From the NCBI RefSeq assembly GCF_017696315.1, contig NZ_JAAORJ010000002.1, positions 1 to 64,000 of the forward strand: DNA of 64,000 nt. The letters are read 5' to 3'. Positions 42,742-48,889 of this stretch are shown here, piece by piece. Position 1 is the first letter of the stretch. Each line of letters starts with the position of its first letter. The DNA is from Prochlorococcus marinus XMU1412 (GTDB taxonomy: Bacteria; Cyanobacteriota; Cyanobacteriia; PCC-6307; Cyanobiaceae). The position numbers and the translations under genes are program-made. Under the pieces are notes generated by a model, which saw only the letters and a list, made by a program, of their open reading frames with translations, made no database searches and had not been told where the DNA came from.

Positions 42742-43053
42742 ATGGCTACAGAAACAATGGGTATCGCTCTCGGCATGATCGAGACACGCGGACTTGTACC
42801 TGCAATCGAAGCAGCTGATGCAATGACAAAGGCTGCAGAAGTTCGCCTTATTGGTCGTGAATTCGTAGGTGGCGGTTATGTCACAGTATTGGTTAGAGGC
42901 GAAACAGGCGCAGTTAACGCAGCTGTAAGAGCTGGTGCTGATGCTTGTGAAAGAGTTGGTGACGGTTTAGTTGCAGCTCACATTATTGCTCGTCCTCATA
43001 GAGAAGTTGAACCTGCTCTTGGTAACGGTGAATTTCTTGGTCAAAAGGACTAA
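42742..43053 (+). CDS. csoS1: Major carboxysome shell protein CsoS1 (BMC-H)
   Basis: 103 residues, one BMC domain forming hexamers that tile the alpha-carboxysome facets. The start MATETMGIALGMIETRGLVPAIEAAD and VRLIGREFVGGGYVTVLVRGE are the family signatures, and HIIARPHREVE lies near the end. There is one csoS1 copy here. It is the first gene of the operon. Codons are visibly richer in G and C than neighbours, as expected for a very highly expressed gene. Confidence 0.98.
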   Translation: MATETMGIALGMIETRGLVPAIEAADAMTKAAEVRLIGREFVGGGYVTVLVRGETGAVNAAVRAGADACERVGDGLVAAHIIARPHREVEPALGNGEFLGQKD

Positions 43054-43062
43054 TTAAGTAAA

Positions 43063-43082
43063 GCAAAATTTATAAATTTTGC
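43063..43082. promoter_or_regulatory. Palindrome between csoS1 and cbbL
   Basis: GCAAAATTTATAAATTTTGC is a perfect 20-bp palindrome, 9 bp after the csoS1 stop. As RNA it would fold into a stem of about eight pairs. No T-run follows, so it is more likely an RNA-stability or processing element than a terminator. Confidence 0.5.
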
Positions 43083-43122: not shown

Positions 43123-44538
43123 ATGAGTAAGAAGTATGATGCAGGGGTAAAGGAGTACAGAGATACCTACTGGACTCCTGAATATGTACCCCTAGACACC
43201 GATTTACTAGCCTGTTTCAAATGTACAGGTCAAGAAGGTGTCCCCAGAGAAGAAGTCGCAGCAGCTGTTGCCGCTGAATCTTCAACAGGTACTTGGTCAA
43301 CAGTTTGGTCCGAGTTACTTACAGATTTAGAATTTTATAAAGGACGTTGTTATCGAATCGAAGACGTTCCTGGAGATCCTGAAGCTTTTTATGCTTTTAT
43401 TGCATATCCTTTAGATCTTTTTGAAGAAGGTTCTATTACAAACGTATTAACATCTCTAGTAGGAAACGTTTTTGGATTTAAAGCTCTAAGACACCTACGT
43501 CTAGAAGATATTAGATTCCCAATCGCTTTCATCAAAACTTGCGGTGGTCCCCCAAATGGAATCGTAGTTGAAAGAGATCGTTTAAACAAATATGGAAGAC
43601 CTCTTCTTGGTTGTACCATTAAACCTAAATTAGGATTATCTGGTAAAAACTATGGTCGAGTTGTATATGAGTGCCTTAGAGGTGGTCTTGATTTAACGAA
43701 GGATGACGAGAATATAAATTCTCAGCCATTCCAGCGTTGGAGAGAAAGATTTGAGTTTGTTGCAGAAGCAGTTAAGCTTGCTCAGCAAGAAACTGGAGAA
43801 GTTAAAGGTCACTACCTAAACTGTACTGCCAACACTCCTGAAGAACTTTACGAAAGAGCTGAATTTGCAAAAGAGCTAGATATGCCAATCATCATGCATG
43901 ATTATATAACTGGCGGTTTTACTGCAAATACTGGATTAGCAAACTGGTGTCGTAAAAATGGCATGCTTCTACATATTCATAGAGCGATGCATGCTGTTAT
44001 TGATAGACATCCAAAACACGGTATCCATTTCAGGGTTCTAGCAAAATGTTTGAGACTCTCCGGAGGAGATCAATTACATACTGGAACTGTTGTTGGAAAA
44101 CTAGAAGGTGATCGTCAAACAACTCTTGGTTACATTGACAACTTAAGAGAGTCATTTGTTCCCGAAGATAGATCAAGAGGTAACTTCTTTGATCAAGATT
44201 GGGGTTCAATGCCAGGAGTATTTGCTGTCGCATCAGGTGGTATTCACGTATGGCATATGCCTGCACTCCTAGCAATTTTTGGAGATGATTCTTGTCTTCA
44301 GTTCGGTGGAGGAACACATGGTCATCCATGGGGTTCAGCTGCTGGAGCTGCAGCCAACAGAGTCGCTTTAGAAGCTTGCGTAAAAGCACGTAATGCTGGT
44401 CGCGAAATCGAAAAAGAGAGTAGAGACATTCTTATGGAAGCTGCTAAACACAGTCCTGAATTAGCTATTGCTCTTGAAACTTGGAAGGAAATTAAGTTTG
44501 AATTTGATACCGTCGACAAATTAGACGTTCAAGGTTAA
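43123..44538 (+). CDS. cbbL: RuBisCO large subunit, form IA
   Basis: 471 residues. Fixes CO2 onto ribulose bisphosphate inside the carboxysome. Active-site stretches are [11 protein letters not shown] (catalytic Lys), [12 protein letters not shown] (carbamylated Lys and metal ligands) and the phosphate-binding [11 protein letters not shown]. The sequence [19 protein letters not shown] at the start and its place in a cso operon mark form IA, the type acquired by marine picocyanobacteria with alpha-carboxysomes instead of the usual cyanobacterial form IB. Confidence 0.99.
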
Positions 44539-44552
44539 ACCAGATTTCAAAA

Positions 44553-44577
44553 TTGAGGAGATTATTCTTCTCCTCAA
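44553..44577 (+). promoter_or_regulatory. Hairpin between cbbL and cbbS
   Basis: TTGAGGAGA (44553-44561) and TCTCCTCAA (44569-44577) form a 9-bp stem with a 7-base loop in the 93-bp gap. No T-run follows, so an intercistronic stabiliser or processing site is the likelier reading. Confidence 0.55.
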
Positions 44578-44631: not shown

Positions 44632-44973
44632 ATGCCTTTCCAGAGCACAATAGGCGACTATCAAACAGTTGCAACCCTGGAAACATTCGGTTTCTTACCA
44701 CCGATGACCCAGGAAGAGATATACGATCAAATTGCATACATAATTGCTCAAGGCTGGAGTCCTGTTATTGAGCATGTTCATCCTAGTGGAAGTATGCAAA
44801 CTTATTGGTCTTATTGGAAGCTCCCATTCTTTGGGGAAAAAGATCTTAACTTGGTTGTAAGTGAATTAGAGGCATGTCATAGAGCATACCCTGATCACCA
44901 TGTAAGAATCATCGGATACGATGCTTACACTCAAAGCCAAGGAACAGCTTTTGTAGTTTTCCAAGGACGTTAA
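44632..44973 (+). CDS. cbbS: RuBisCO small subunit, form IA
   Basis: 113 residues. Signatures are TFGFLPPMTQEEIYDQIAYII near the start, WSYWKLPFFGE and VRIIGYDAYTQSQGTAFVV near the end. It caps the L8 core. It follows cbbL by 93 bp, with a hairpin in the gap, and is followed by a strong terminator-like hairpin before csoS2. Confidence 0.98.
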   Translation: MPFQSTIGDYQTVATLETFGFLPPMTQEEIYDQIAYIIAQGWSPVIEHVHPSGSMQTYWSYWKLPFFGEKDLNLVVSELEACHRAYPDHHVRIIGYDAYTQSQGTAFVVFQGR

Positions 44974-44995: not shown

Positions 44996-45029
44996 CTTTC
45001 TCCAAAAAATATTTTTGGAGAAAGTTTTT
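44996..45029 (+). terminator. Terminator-like hairpin between cbbS and csoS2
   Basis: CTTTCTCCAAAAA (44996-45008) and TTTTTGGAGAAAG (45012-45024) are exact reverse complements with a 3-base loop, giving a 13-bp stem. Five T residues follow at 45025-45029. This has every feature of an intrinsic terminator but lies inside the operon, 26 bp before the csoS2 ATG. It would reduce transcription of csoS2 onward or protect the RuBisCO mRNA 3' end. Confidence 0.75.
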
Positions 45030-45054
45030 CAAAAGAGTTTCACATTTGAAGATT

Positions 45055-47352
45055 ATGTCAAAAAAAACCAGTAGAGAGATTGCACTAGAAAGAAGAAAGG
45101 CGATGAGTGATAGCGGCAAAAAAGCTGCTGCTTATTCTTCAAATACTAAAGATAGAGTTCGGTCTTCTCAAGATATACAGATTTCTGGTACTCAGTCTTC
45201 TTCTAATAATCAAAATTTTTCTAAACCATCTACAAAACATATTCCAAAAACTCAGATAAATAAAAAGTCTTCTCCTACACATTTATCTAGTAAAGAGTTA
45301 GTAATAGAGAGAAGAAAAGCAATGTCTACCCATGGCAAATCAGCTATAACTTCATCCGATAGAACTCGTACTGATGTTAAAAAAGAAAGTCCTGTAAATA
45401 CAGTCAAAACTACCACAAATAAAAATCAAGAAGTTCAAACTTCACATAATATAGAAATTAAAACATCAAAACCAAACGTTAAAAGAAGAATTAAACAGAA
45501 GAGAAAGCCTATTACTAATACAAGTAGAGATATTGTTTTGGCGAGAAGAGAAGCTCAATCTAAGCATGGTAAATCTGCAACTAAACAGAATACCAGTGCA
45601 GCTTCTTTAGCTAGAAGGGGAGACCCAGATTTAAGTAGTAGAGAAATTTCTCAGAGAGTGAGAGAGCTAAGAAGTAAAACTGGTGCCACAGGCAAAAAAG
45701 GTAATGGTAAATGTAGACCATGTGGTCCAAATAAAAATGGAGCCAAACAAAATATTGCTGATGCTAGCTGGAAAGTTGGTAAAAGTGAAACTGATTCAGG
45801 TCAATTAGTTACTGGAACACAAGCGAATAGATCTGTAAAAACTACAGGTAATGAAGCAAGTACATGCAGAACTGTAACTGGTACTCAATACATGGGAGCA
45901 GAAGTGATTGACCAATTTTGTCAAGATAGACCAAGTTATAAACAACCTCTTAGATCTACTGTTACCACTACAACATCAGGTAATAAAGTAACTGGAAATG
46001 AAGTCGGTAGATCAGAGAGGGTCACAGGTGATGAGCCAGGGACTTGTAAAAATCTTACAGGTACTGAATATGTATCTGCTAATCAATCACAGAAGTATTG
46101 TGGTGATGTTCCAAAAAATCCTTCAAAGGTTAAACATAGTACTACAACTGATGGATTAAAAGTATCTGGATCACTTCCGGGTAGATCAACTCTGGTTACT
46201 GGAGATGAATCAGGTTCTGGACATCAGTTAACTGGAGATCAATATCTTGGCTCAGAGCCAAATCCAAAAGGTAAAGCATTTGAAAAAGTAGGTAGTTATA
46301 ACACTCTTAATGGGAATAATGTAACTGGTACTGGGGTAGGAAGATCAGACCATATGACAGGCAATGAACATGGGAGTTGCAAGAATGTAACTGGTGATGA
46401 GTACATAGGATCTCAACAATATGAGAAGTTTTGCGGTTCAAAACCAAAACCAGAAGCTAGAAAAGTAGGTTTAAGCCTTTCTTCAAAGTCAAATTTAATA
46501 AGCGGGACTATGACAGGACGATCAAAAATAGTAACTGGAGATGAACCAGGTTCATGCAAAGTGCTAACAGGAACACCATACGCAGGCTTAGATCAGATTA
46601 ATGAGAATTGTAATAATGAAACTTCTGAAGATATGAAATCACGAGCAACAGTTAATTCTGGAAATAATTCAAATGCCAGACTTACAGGACAACAACCAGG
46701 CATTGGCGGAGTAATGACAGGTGCTAAGAAAGGTGCTTGTAAAAACCTAACAGGGACTCCTTATGTTGGTGGAGATCAGTTCTCACAAGCATGCGATAAT
46801 TCTCCACATGATACTGCTTATGCGAATCCGGAAAAGTCATCAGGTAACCCTTGGAATGAATTCTCTGTTGAATCACCATCAAGAGACAAATATTCTGAAA
46901 AAAATACTCAAGGTGTTACGGGAAATAAATATGAAAATGGTTCAAAGGTAACAGGACCTTTTGATATGGCAGTTGATAAGGTCACTGGTACTGAAAAATT
47001 TAGATTTGAGCCGAATAAAAATATTACTTATAAACAAAAAATGGAAATTGAAGAGGCAGACCGTGCTGCAAAGACACCAGAAAAAAGAGTTGCATCAAGG
47101 ATTACTGGTGAAGGACAATCAGTGGGAAACGTAACTGGTGATGATTGGGATCGCGGTGATAAGGTGACAGGTACAGAGGGAGCTTCTTCTAGAAAGCGAA
47201 ATCCATCAAGAGCAGGATTTATGAGCGCAATGCCCCCTATGGAAGTTAAAAGAAATGAGGAAACAGAAAAACCAGATTTCTTGATAACTGGATCTAGTGG
47301 AAATACTCGTGAAGGACAACTTGTTACCTTTTCAGGTGGTGCAAGAGGTTAA
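45055..47352 (+). CDS. csoS2: Carboxysome assembly scaffold CsoS2
   Basis: 765 residues from ATG 45055; a TTG at 45046 is in frame but not needed. This disordered scaffold links RuBisCO to the shell. The N-terminal region has repeated helices of the type ALERRKAMSDSGK, VIERRKAMSTHGK and LARREAQSKHGK, which bind RuBisCO. The middle has six or so repeats built on VTGDEPGTCKNLTGTEY and similar, with conserved paired cysteines and VTG motifs. The C-terminal region carries ITGEGQSVGNVTGDDWDRG and ends LVTFSGGARG, which anchors to the shell. No ribosomal slippery site was evident, so one full-length product is expected. Confidence 0.97.
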   Translation: MSKKTSREIALERRKAMSDSGKKAAAYSSNTKDRVRSSQDIQISGTQSSSNNQNFSKPSTKHIPKTQINKKSSPTHLSSKELVIERRKAMSTHGKSAITSSDRTRTDVKKESPVNTVKTTTNKNQEVQTSHNIEIKTSKPNVKRRIKQKRKPITNTSRDIVLARREAQSKHGKSATKQNTSAASLARRGDPDLSSREISQRVRELRSKTGATGKKGNGKCRPCGPNKNGAKQNIADASWKVGKSETDSGQLVTGTQANRSVKTTGNEASTCRTVTGTQYMGAEVIDQFCQDRPSYKQPLRSTVTTTTSGNKVTGNEVGRSERVTGDEPGTCKNLTGTEYVSANQSQKYCGDVPKNPSKVKHSTTTDGLKVSGSLPGRSTLVTGDESGSGHQLTGDQYLGSEPNPKGKAFEKVGSYNTLNGNNVTGTGVGRSDHMTGNEHGSCKNVTGDEYIGSQQYEKFCGSKPKPEARKVGLSLSSKSNLISGTMTGRSKIVTGDEPGSCKVLTGTPYAGLDQINENCNNETSEDMKSRATVNSGNNSNARLTGQQPGIGGVMTGAKKGACKNLTGTPYVGGDQFSQACDNSPHDTAYANPEKSSGNPWNEFSVESPSRDKYSEKNTQGVTGNKYENGSKVTGPFDMAVDKVTGTEKFRFEPNKNITYKQKMEIEEADRAAKTPEKRVASRITGEGQSVGNVTGDDWDRGDKVTGTEGASSRKRNPSRAGFMSAMPPMEVKRNEETEKPDFLITGSSGNTREGQLVTFSGGARG

Positions 47353-47359
47353 GTAAATA

Positions 47360-48889
47360 ATGCCTTTAAGAGGACTGGCTAAAGCCAAGAACTTCACATT
47401 GGGGCCAACCGCTCCAATGAAAACTTTTACTGAAAATATCCATAATCAAACTAAAAATTCAAATAATTTCCAAAATTCTGGAAAGTCTCATAAATTAACC
47501 AATAATATTCAAAATGAAAATCTATTTAGGTATGAAAGCAAAATAAAAAGTGATTTTGACGAAATTGTTCCAACTCTCAAGGAAATTGCTCGAATTCAAC
47601 ATCACGAAGATTTTATAAATAAGGCTCAGAAAATATCAAGAAAAAATTTAGGAATAGATTTACCCCTCCATGTATTAGATAAATCTTGGGTTAAGCCTCT
47701 TGATATGAGAGCTTTATATGCATGGTGTGCTTTTAAACAGCATGAGAAACTTAGCGACAATTTTTTTAACAATGATCCACTTGAAGGTGCTGCTGGAAGT
47801 AGGGATGCGGAAGATTTTGAAAAATTTCTCTTAGATTGTGGAATTCATTTACTTGATATAACTCCTTGTTCAGATGGAAGATTAGCTCATTCAGTTGCTT
47901 ATGTAATGAGAATACCTTTTAGTTCCGTAAGAAGAAGATCCCATGCTGGAGCACTCTTTGATATTGAAAATACTGTTAATCGATGGGTAAAAACTGAACA
48001 TAAAAGATATAGAGAGAATGTTCCTAATGAAGCTCATAAAGATACCAGGTACTTAAAAGTTGTAACTTATCATTTTAGTTCAGTAGATCCTTTACATCAG
48101 GGATGCGCAGCTCATGGGAGTAATGACGAGTTAGCTGCAGCAGAAGGTAGAAATAAATTATATGCTTTCAAAGAGGCTGTAGAGAATAGCTTTTGCTGCG
48201 GAGCTTCTGTGGATTTAATGTTAATTGGACTTGATACAGACACTGATTCATTGAAAATACATTTATCAACTAGTGATGGCGGTATAGATTTAGAAAAAAC
48301 TATTTCTACATTAGAAATTTATAATTCAACAATAAACTTTTCAAAAGAGGATGCGGAAAGAGAAATTTGCCAGACAATTTCTAATCAATCTTCAAAAGAT
48401 AAACTCAGTGGACTGGAAAAATTTACGTATAAATTAATTGTCAATAATATTTCTCAAATTGATTATGTTAAGAGTTTTCATAATGGTTCTTATGAAGATA
48501 TTGGACATGCAGAGAGGTTTATTGGAGTAGGTATAGGTTTCAAAGAAGTACATCTCAGAAATTTAACTTATTTTGCTCATTTAGATACAGTCGAAGAAGG
48601 GGCTCCAGATTTAGATGTAGGAGTGAAGATTTTTACTGGATTAAATGTTTCTCAAGATCTACCTATTCCGGTAGTAATAAGATTTGATTACTCTGGAAAA
48701 GTACCCGGCGCAAAAGAGAGGGCAATAAATGATTGTGAAAGAGTTAATAATGCGATATCAATTAGATATAAAAATTTAGTTGATCAAGGTTTGTTACATA
48801 CTTGCTCTACTATTAGAGATAGGGACAACATTCATTCCGCCCAAATTATTGGAATGTCTTTAGATAAAAAAACAGAGGAGGCTCACTAA
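47360..48889 (+). CDS. csoSCA: Carboxysomal carbonic anhydrase CsoSCA
   Basis: 509 residues. It converts bicarbonate to CO2 inside the shell. It is a highly divergent beta-type enzyme with an N-terminal extension of about 80 residues, a helical domain, the catalytic domain and a degenerate C-terminal duplicate. Zinc-site signatures appear in DITPCSDGRLAHS, and HQGCAAHGSNDE in the middle. It follows csoS2 by 7 bp. csoS4A starts 2 bp after its stop. Confidence 0.95.
   Translation: MPLRGLAKAKNFTLGPTAPMKTFTENIHNQTKNSNNFQNSGKSHKLTNNIQNENLFRYESKIKSDFDEIVPTLKEIARIQHHEDFINKAQKISRKNLGIDLPLHVLDKSWVKPLDMRALYAWCAFKQHEKLSDNFFNNDPLEGAAGSRDAEDFEKFLLDCGIHLLDITPCSDGRLAHSVAYVMRIPFSSVRRRSHAGALFDIENTVNRWVKTEHKRYRENVPNEAHKDTRYLKVVTYHFSSVDPLHQGCAAHGSNDELAAAEGRNKLYAFKEAVENSFCCGASVDLMLIGLDTDTDSLKIHLSTSDGGIDLEKTISTLEIYNSTINFSKEDAEREICQTISNQSSKDKLSGLEKFTYKLIVNNISQIDYVKSFHNGSYEDIGHAERFIGVGIGFKEVHLRNLTYFAHLDTVEEGAPDLDVGVKIFTGLNVSQDLPIPVVIRFDYSGKVPGAKERAINDCERVNNAISIRYKNLVDQGLLHTCSTIRDRDNIHSAQIIGMSLDKKTEEAH
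48875..48881 (+). promoter_or_regulatory. Strong ribosome-binding site of csoS4A
   Basis: GAGGAGG lies inside the csoSCA 3' end, 10 bases before the csoS4A ATG at 48892. Clear Shine-Dalgarno sequences are uncommon in this window. Confidence 0.6.

Follow-up and report, generated by a model that had tools for sequence, protein, structure and literature searches.

A conserved hairpin after cbbS in the carboxysome operon of Prochlorococcus and its relatives, a probable 3'-end boundary element of the RuBisCO mRNA

The csoS1-csoS3 segment and the hairpin of the window

The window, i.e. the whole stretch of 64,000 nucleotides of Prochlorococcus marinus XMU1412 DNA analysed here, contains a carboxysome gene cluster on its + strand; the genes, which we take from their proteins and their order to be csoS1, cbbL, cbbS, csoS2 and csoS3/csoSCA, are followed by further carboxysome genes on the same strand. 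The relevant features, all on the + strand, are listed with the evidence on which they rest:

42742..43053, +: csoS1, major shell protein (ORF; operon order as in PMC4499774, excerpts)
43063..43082, +: weak A/T-rich palindrome in the csoS1-cbbL gap, not clearly functional (sequence)
43123..44538, +: cbbL, RuBisCO large subunit (ORF)
44553..44577, +: conserved 9-bp hairpin in the cbbL-cbbS gap, without a T tract on the + strand (sequence, conservation)
44632..44973, +: cbbS, RuBisCO small subunit, stop codon 44971-44973 (ORF; relatives)
44996..45024, +: intercistronic hairpin; 5' arm 44996-45008, loop 45009-45011, 3' arm 45012-45024 (sequence, folding, conservation, covariation)
45025..45029, +: T5 tract adjoining the stem, putative U-tract of a weak terminator (sequence)
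45055..47352, +: csoS2, scaffold protein (ORF; operon order; ATG and N-terminus common to relatives)
47360..48889, +: csoS3/csoSCA, carbonic anhydrase, 7 nt 3' of csoS2 (ORF; position)

The start of csoS2 was set at the ATG at 45055 (an in-frame TTG is present at 45046). No sigma-70-like promoter was recovered on the + strand between 41045 and 47416, nor just 5' of csoS1, and the scan gave fewer hits than shuffled sequence; since the region upstream of csoS1 was also blank and the hits were fewer than in shuffles, the scan is uninformative about an internal csoS2 promoter.

The hairpin between cbbS and csoS2 (44996-45024) reads CTTTCTCCAAAAA-ATA-TTTTTGGAGAAAG: all 13 positions of the stem are paired (four G-C pairs), and the loop comprises 3 nt. 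It begins 22 nt past the cbbS stop (44973), and its calculated energy of -13.9 kcal/mol, reached with only 4/13 G-C pairs, corresponds to the stable stem of an intrinsic terminator. The 111-nt region folds at -23.7 kcal/mol compared with a shuffle mean of -13.4 (z -3.78; 0/200 shuffles as good). According to a combined hairpin and T-tail score, the site ranks first on both strands of the 64-kb window; rank 2 is taken by the cbbL-cbbS hairpin as read on the opposite strand. The original prediction had described a perfect 13-bp stem, a 3-base loop and a T5 tract in this gap, in agreement with the sequence at 44996-45029; its placement 26 bp before csoS2 was close, the exact distance between the T tract (45029) and the csoS2 ATG (45055) being 25 nt. 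A terminator serving the opposite strand was also considered and dropped, as the T tail is absent on that side of the hairpin. The motif is present at a single place in its own genome, unlike the many copies of a REP-like element.

Conservation and compensatory change across relatives

For comparison, cbbS-csoS2 gaps were drawn from the best 80 of 432 relatives in the genome collection, from a 300-genome sample of the family (272 matching; 30 loci and 100 stretches, seven being repeats) and from 30 of 45 additional genomes of the family draw. The first 212 rows, window included, resulted in 165 unique gaps, 164 of which were scored; "low-light" and "Synechococcus-like" were assigned as labels by stem class and relatedness rather than by taxonomy. 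Excluded from the 164 were L007, L015, L139 and L174, in which the csoS2 start was not found, and the mis-trimmed 36-nt spacer of L113/L114; by eye, each of these rows contains a hairpin, and L007, L015, L113 and L114 have the stem end of the window clade followed by T5-T6.

The hairpin was present in 164/164 scored unique spacers, window included: 70/70 of the window clade, 64/64 of the other Prochlorococcus-like (low-light-type) genomes and 30/30 of the marine Synechococcus-like genomes. Its energy ranged from -8.8 to -16.8 kcal/mol (n=70), from -13.2 to -23.7 kcal/mol (n=64) and from -10.8 to -21.0 kcal/mol (n=30), respectively, and it started 17-24, 9-24 and 19-35 nt past the cbbS stop, both the start distances and the 164-spacer scan being confined to 5-45 nt past that stop. 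If this limit was lifted and loops were restricted to at most 14 nt, the best hairpin was positioned elsewhere in 14/70 window-clade and 3/30 Synechococcus-like spacers; with loops of up to 11 nt, -9 kcal/mol was reached by 57/70 window-clade spacers. The original prediction had named loss of the stem in close relatives as evidence against it; such a loss was looked for, and the stem proved to be kept. The exact pattern including TTTT was found in 148/266 genus genomes (65/87 of the good ones), once in each; at least some of the other genomes, among them G264, G179, G220 and G229, miss it by a single base that belongs either to the foot of the stem or to the T run. The element shares two traits of the stem-loops of selective RNA processing and stabilisation (SRPS): its position between cistrons, right after a presumably abundant one, and a structure that is kept across species regardless of a U run.

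In the distant group, a hairpin of at most -9 kcal/mol was present in 27/30 gaps if one mismatch was allowed and in 25/30 with perfect stems, often of the GGTCCCG/CGGGACC type (L250 and L251 were trimmed to 19 nt by the start-codon rule; in L234 and L259 no start was found). A perfect-stem control gave shuffles as stable as the real gap in 113/700 cases for the window clade, 3/640 for the low-light-type, 6/300 for the Synechococcus-like and 23/280 for the distant genomes (for these shuffle counts, as for the -9 kcal/mol and terminator-score counts, L113 was placed in the "LL" group). The high value of the window clade arises because this control under-scores mismatched and large-looped stems; the distant hairpins are weaker evidence, because their gaps are G+C-rich and 23/280 shuffles were as good.

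The stem sequence itself differs between the groups: It is CTTTCTCC/GGAGAAAG in the window clade, mostly TAGCCTCGA/TCGAGGCTA or TTAGCCCTGA/TCAGGGCTAA in the other Prochlorococcus-like genomes and GAGCCCTGA/TCAGGGCTC in the Synechococcus-like genomes. The covariation alignment comprised 75 of the 100 hairpins extracted outside the window clade; left out were the 23 distant hairpins as well as L176 and L180, for which the second hairpin described below had been picked instead. Among these 75 hairpins, 99.2% of the 785 cells were paired and changes on both sides were observed at 11/13 pairs, i.e. the compensatory changes that the original prediction had proposed to look for are present. The number of cells changed on both sides was 98, compared with 23.8 in shuffles (0/500 as high), and sliding the arms by 1-3 columns lowered the pairing to 28-46%. 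In the cbbL+cbbS tree (190 tips), the window-clade stem is confined to one clade, the sole odd row, L113, containing the same hairpin in mis-trimmed form. Within this clade, the lower eight pairs are near-invariant, and the upper stem and the loop vary in length.

Between the first hairpin and csoS2, a second hairpin was detected in 46/64 low-light-type and 29/30 Synechococcus-like spacers (e.g. L175, L179) and in 0/70 of the window clade, as a raw count of perfect stems of at most -4 kcal/mol.

The hairpin of the cbbL-cbbS gap is conserved as well. Energies of at most -9 kcal/mol were obtained in 75/75, 68/68, 26/27 and 23/30 unique gaps of the four groups (window clade to distant genomes), an adjacent T tract followed in 1/75, 1/68, 0/26 and 0/26, and shuffles were as stable as the real gap in 0/750, 7/680, 1/270 and 72/280 cases; with the last value, the hairpin of the most distant group does not appear convincing. 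Hairpins of the csoS1-cbbL gap were mostly weak (at most -9 kcal/mol in 0/48 of the own clade, 5/59 and 3/30), and only 29/480 shuffles were as stable as the palindrome of the own clade. Each RuBisCO cistron has its own hairpin 3' of it.

The T tract and terminator strength

An adjacent T run, defined as T4 or longer and no more than one base away from the stem end, was present in 66/70 window-clade, 2/64 other Prochlorococcus-like and 0/30 Synechococcus-like unique spacers; the U-tract is thus not kept at the homologous sites of the other groups. Looser stem ends changed these values to 65/69, 3/64 and 6/30, with 2/28 in the distant genomes, so that the counts vary with the chosen stem end (Synechococcus-like: 0/30 or 6/30). 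At a greater distance, 27/30 Synechococcus-like spacers have a T4+ run 2-12 nt past the stem; in 52/64 low-light-type spacers none is present within 12 nt. In the high-light clade the adjacent run consists of 4-8 T and holds its place while upper stem and loop differ in length. A/T-richness alone cannot account for it, because the cbbL-cbbS hairpins of the same genomes are followed by an adjacent T4+ in only 1/75. In G024 (L174), whose spacing is unlike that of the main groups, a run of eight T is positioned 11 nt past the hairpin, close before csoS2; by eye, a tandem TTTTTTAAAGAG-like unit directly 3' of the T tract was seen in some high-light gaps (L015, L031, L036).

Terminator strength was scored with a formula after d'Aubenton-Carafa 1990, which is calibrated on E. 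coli. The window site scored -3. In another high-light genome, the sites downstream of psbA, psbC and pcb reached 26, 14 and 36, and all pcb, psbA and psbC sites tested ranged from 14 to 53. The medians were -2 in the window clade, -20 in low-light-type, -34 in Synechococcus-like and -25 in distant genomes, and values above 0 were reached by 24/69, 8/64, 1/30 and 1/28 spacers, respectively. Taken together, the scores and T-run counts point to a marginal terminator in the window clade and, by the standard of the psbA, psbC and pcb sites, to none in most other genomes. The "full" intrinsic terminator of the original prediction was accordingly overstated: stem and T5 are there, with 4/13 G-C pairs, a T run of only five and the score of -3.

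T-tailed terminators are present elsewhere in these genomes; the names of the genes concerned (pcb-like, psbA, psbC, pcb) are presumptive, those in G264 resting on peptide ends. The low-light-type genome G056 has a hairpin with a directly adjoining T5-T10 after each of five pcb-like genes (L219 6868-13908), its own cbbS hairpin (L140) being without a T run, and the Synechococcus-like genome G204 has a handful of T-tailed terminators in 100 kb. In the high-light genome G264, several of the best sites are positioned 15-21 nt past the stop codons of psbC, pcb and the two psbA copies:

L264 15266-15290 and 17219-17243; L276 4639-4661 and 18159-18179: psbA, psbC and pcb terminator sites of the high-light genome

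In a 564-kb sample, scanned on both strands, 19 terminator-like sites reached -10 kcal/mol or below, the window site being among them and a few overlapping genes, and a single shuffled set contained 0; by energy alone the window site ranks fifth among the 19. A preliminary view that high-light genomes are without intrinsic terminators, based on 164 kb (window plus 100 kb of G264) with no excess over shuffles, was overturned by this sample. Canonical terminators are rare in the high-light genome, and several of the best ones follow psbA, psbC and pcb.

Function of the hairpin and its alternatives

The question behind the element is how a single operon supplies RuBisCO in large excess while scaffold, carbonic anhydrase and vertex proteins are made in smaller amounts, in alpha-carboxysomes including those of Prochlorococcus. 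The reading that we favor, at a probability of roughly 0.55, is a conserved boundary element that protects the 3' end of the cbbLS mRNA in all groups and to which a weak, leaky terminator was added in the high-light clade. It is preferred because the T tract is clade-limited, the second hairpin is present elsewhere, and the cbbL-cbbS gap keeps a hairpin that has no T tract. The last point weighs most in favor of a common 3'-protecting role: as cbbL and cbbS are required in equal amounts, termination between the two would do harm, whereas a 3'-protecting hairpin behind each of them is reasonable. In all groups, the hairpin thus probably bounds or stabilises the 3' end of the RuBisCO mRNA, and it probably matters for the amount of RuBisCO relative to the other carboxysome parts. 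The original prediction is affected in both of its parts: A leaky terminator is plausible for the window clade (adjacent T4+ in 66/70 spacers) and not as the general function (2/64 and 0/30 elsewhere, T-less cbbL hairpin), and protection of the cbbLS 3' end, offered there as the alternative, fits the comparative evidence better than termination in that general role.

According to the favored reading, the stable hairpin that is usual about 20 nt past the cbbS stop in Cyanobiaceae-like genomes would shield the 3' end of the RuBisCO segment; if the RNA downstream is cut or decays, csoS2-csoS3-csoS4 would be lost sooner than csoS1-cbbL-cbbS. A like effect would be expected of the hairpin after cbbL, and since csoS1 is located upstream of cbbL, one hairpin after cbbS could favor csoS1, cbbL and cbbS jointly. 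In most genomes outside the window clade, the RNA may be cut between the first and the second hairpin: two hairpins with a single-stranded linker are the expected anatomy of a cut RNA, and the second one could protect the 5' end of the processed csoS2 mRNA. In the high-light clade, which would have acquired its stem by a single replacement, there is no second hairpin and a T run adjoins, so that a fraction of the transcripts would also end here; judged by this anatomy, the T tract would stand in place of the two-hairpin arrangement. Any termination must be partial, because csoS2 and the later genes belong to the same operon.

It is rather unlikely that a leaky intrinsic terminator sets the ratio alone in every clade, the cyanobacterial polymerase requiring no adjacent U-tract or accepting one slightly further on. 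The adjacent T4+ of the window clade, the runs 2-12 nt past the stem in 27/30 Synechococcus-like spacers (6/30 adjacent with looser stem ends) and the positive scores of 8/64 low-light-type spacers are compatible with this view, for which the cpc operon of S. elongatus with its 6:1 ratio via a partial terminator is a precedent (PMC3219970, excerpts); it conflicts with the 52/64 low-light-type spacers that lack a T4+ within 12 nt, with G056, where the pcb-like genes have T5-T10 tails and the own cbbS hairpin has none, and with the T-less hairpin between cbbL and cbbS. We consider it unlikely, too, that every clade uses the element for nothing but 3' stabilisation or processing and that the high-light T run is a by-product of the A/T-rich genome: although the hairpin is kept without a T run elsewhere, and a window-clade median of about -2 (above 0 in 24/69) would be in line with this, just 1/75 of the cbbL-cbbS hairpins in these A/T-rich genomes is directly followed by a T4+, and the T run stays in place despite a varying upper stem and loop length. 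A quite improbable variant is a translation-tuned switch, in which the ribosome trailing on cbbS blocks the terminator and permits readthrough into csoS2, and weak cbbS translation cuts csoS2 off; if true, scaffold supply would track RuBisCO synthesis inside one operon. About 20 nt from the cbbS stop is a distance at which a trailing ribosome can block a terminator. For tR2 of E. coli, almost full repression at short distances, an efficiency of about 0.9 beyond 30 bp and, for two sequence series, values of 0.12 and 0.8 at 17 and 18 bp are described (PMC4824070, excerpts). Against a special meaning of about 20 nt, the psbA, psbC and pcb terminators of the high-light genome are positioned at 15-21 nt.

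Translational control of csoS2, with the hairpin or its 3' arm hiding or presenting the ribosome-binding site, is very improbable: the GGAG in the 3' arm (45017-45020) is 34 nt from the ATG, beyond the ordinary Shine-Dalgarno range, and is absent from the 3' arms of the other clades listed above. A riboswitch, an attenuator or a repeated palindromic element, as a T-tailed hairpin in untranslated sequence might suggest, is hardly to be expected either; no Rfam family reached its gathering score between 40000 and 50000, the best match being a microRNA model (E 0.71; 24.2 bits versus a cut-off of 90), and the motif occurs at one place per genome, both in its own and in the 148 matching genus genomes. 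The ratios could also be set by translation or by a small RNA: In MED4, pull-down data identify csoS1 and csoS2 and, according to the excerpts of PMC6778093, no further operon gene as targets of the small RNA Yfr10. These targets correspond to csoS1 (42742-43053) and csoS2 (45055-47352) of the window, and Yfr10 could represent a second, independent layer acting on a similar gene split.

Several published observations bear on the balance between termination and protection. S. elongatus, which forms beta-carboxysomes, belongs to a different cyanobacterial lineage from the Prochlorococcus of the window. Cyanobacteria are without Rho (PMC13289151, excerpts; for two species also PMC3219970, excerpts), and in S. 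elongatus 22% of the transcription units end like canonical intrinsic terminators; there, readthrough is lower the more consecutive U are present, and its baseline is higher at ends that lack a U-tract (PMC13289151, excerpts). In E. coli, U-tract-less hairpins are read as trimmed, stabilised ends; as a counterpoint to a protective role, stabilising structures at ends without U-tracts are said to be largely absent in S. elongatus (PMC13289151, excerpts). For MED4, 337 3' UTRs were reported, with 11 termination signals predicted among those longer than 10 nt, and, as a further counterpoint, the operon map includes the cso cluster, a break within it being unmentioned in the accessible parts of that paper (Wang et al. 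2014, PMC3898218). Half-life tables for MED4 are contained in the supplement of PMC2897979 (main text in excerpts), and no cbbS/csoS2 RNA ratio was found in the accessible parts of PMC2942843, PMC2663038, PMC5607370 and PMC2897979.

Comparable elements and significance

Hairpins between cistrons are already known to set the stoichiometry of operons. In the cbb operon of Ralstonia eutropha and the puf operon of Rhodobacter, the most abundant cistrons are reportedly followed by a hairpin that lifts their mRNA above that of the distal genes; premature termination reportedly occurs after cbbLS in the former, and the hairpin is said to be located between pufBA and pufLM in the latter, these cases differing from the present one in lineage and genes. 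In Halothiobacillus neapolitanus, whose cso operon is proteobacterial and has a different gene order, unequal cso transcripts have reportedly been observed, and secondary structures in the operon are said to have been proposed in 2008 as part of the cause. The protein ratio of rubisco:CsoSCA:CsoS2A:CsoS2B in H. neapolitanus is given as 13:1:2:2.5 (PMC12918739, excerpts). The cpc operon of S. elongatus PCC 7942 resembles the present case in that a hairpin inside a cyanobacterial operon separates abundant from scarce parts of one assembly, incomplete termination resulting in an mRNA ratio of about 6:1 (PMC3219970, excerpts); it differs in that the RNA drop was measured there, whereas the cso case is known from sequence and most hairpins outside the window clade are without an adjacent U-tract. 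The cip-cel SRPS stem-loops in the cellulosome operon of Clostridium cellulolyticum are likewise intergenic and located at the 3' ends of cistrons that encode abundant parts of a multi-subunit complex; most of them lack a U run, and they are orthologous but differ from species to species. Of the stem-loops, 28/33 at intergenic processing sites have no U run, and stability tracks the transcript ratio (PMC4423207, excerpts). Here the differences are the other phylum, the processing sites mapped there, and the T tract of the window clade.

Within the literature searched, the compensatory conservation across the relatives examined, the hairpin that follows cbbL and, in one clade, the substitution of a T tract for the second hairpin are new; no published report of the cbbS-csoS2 hairpin was found in open-licence PubMed Central, a scope to which subscription papers, Cai et al. 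2008 (Arch Microbiol 189:141) among them, do not belong. The analysis thereby names a short element of the carboxysome operon that relatives have kept through compensatory change. It is predicted that hairpins with a U-tract (high-light) and without one (low-light, Synechococcus) should differ in readthrough and, if the favored reading is true, the element would be a ready part for tuning carboxysome operons that are moved into other hosts.
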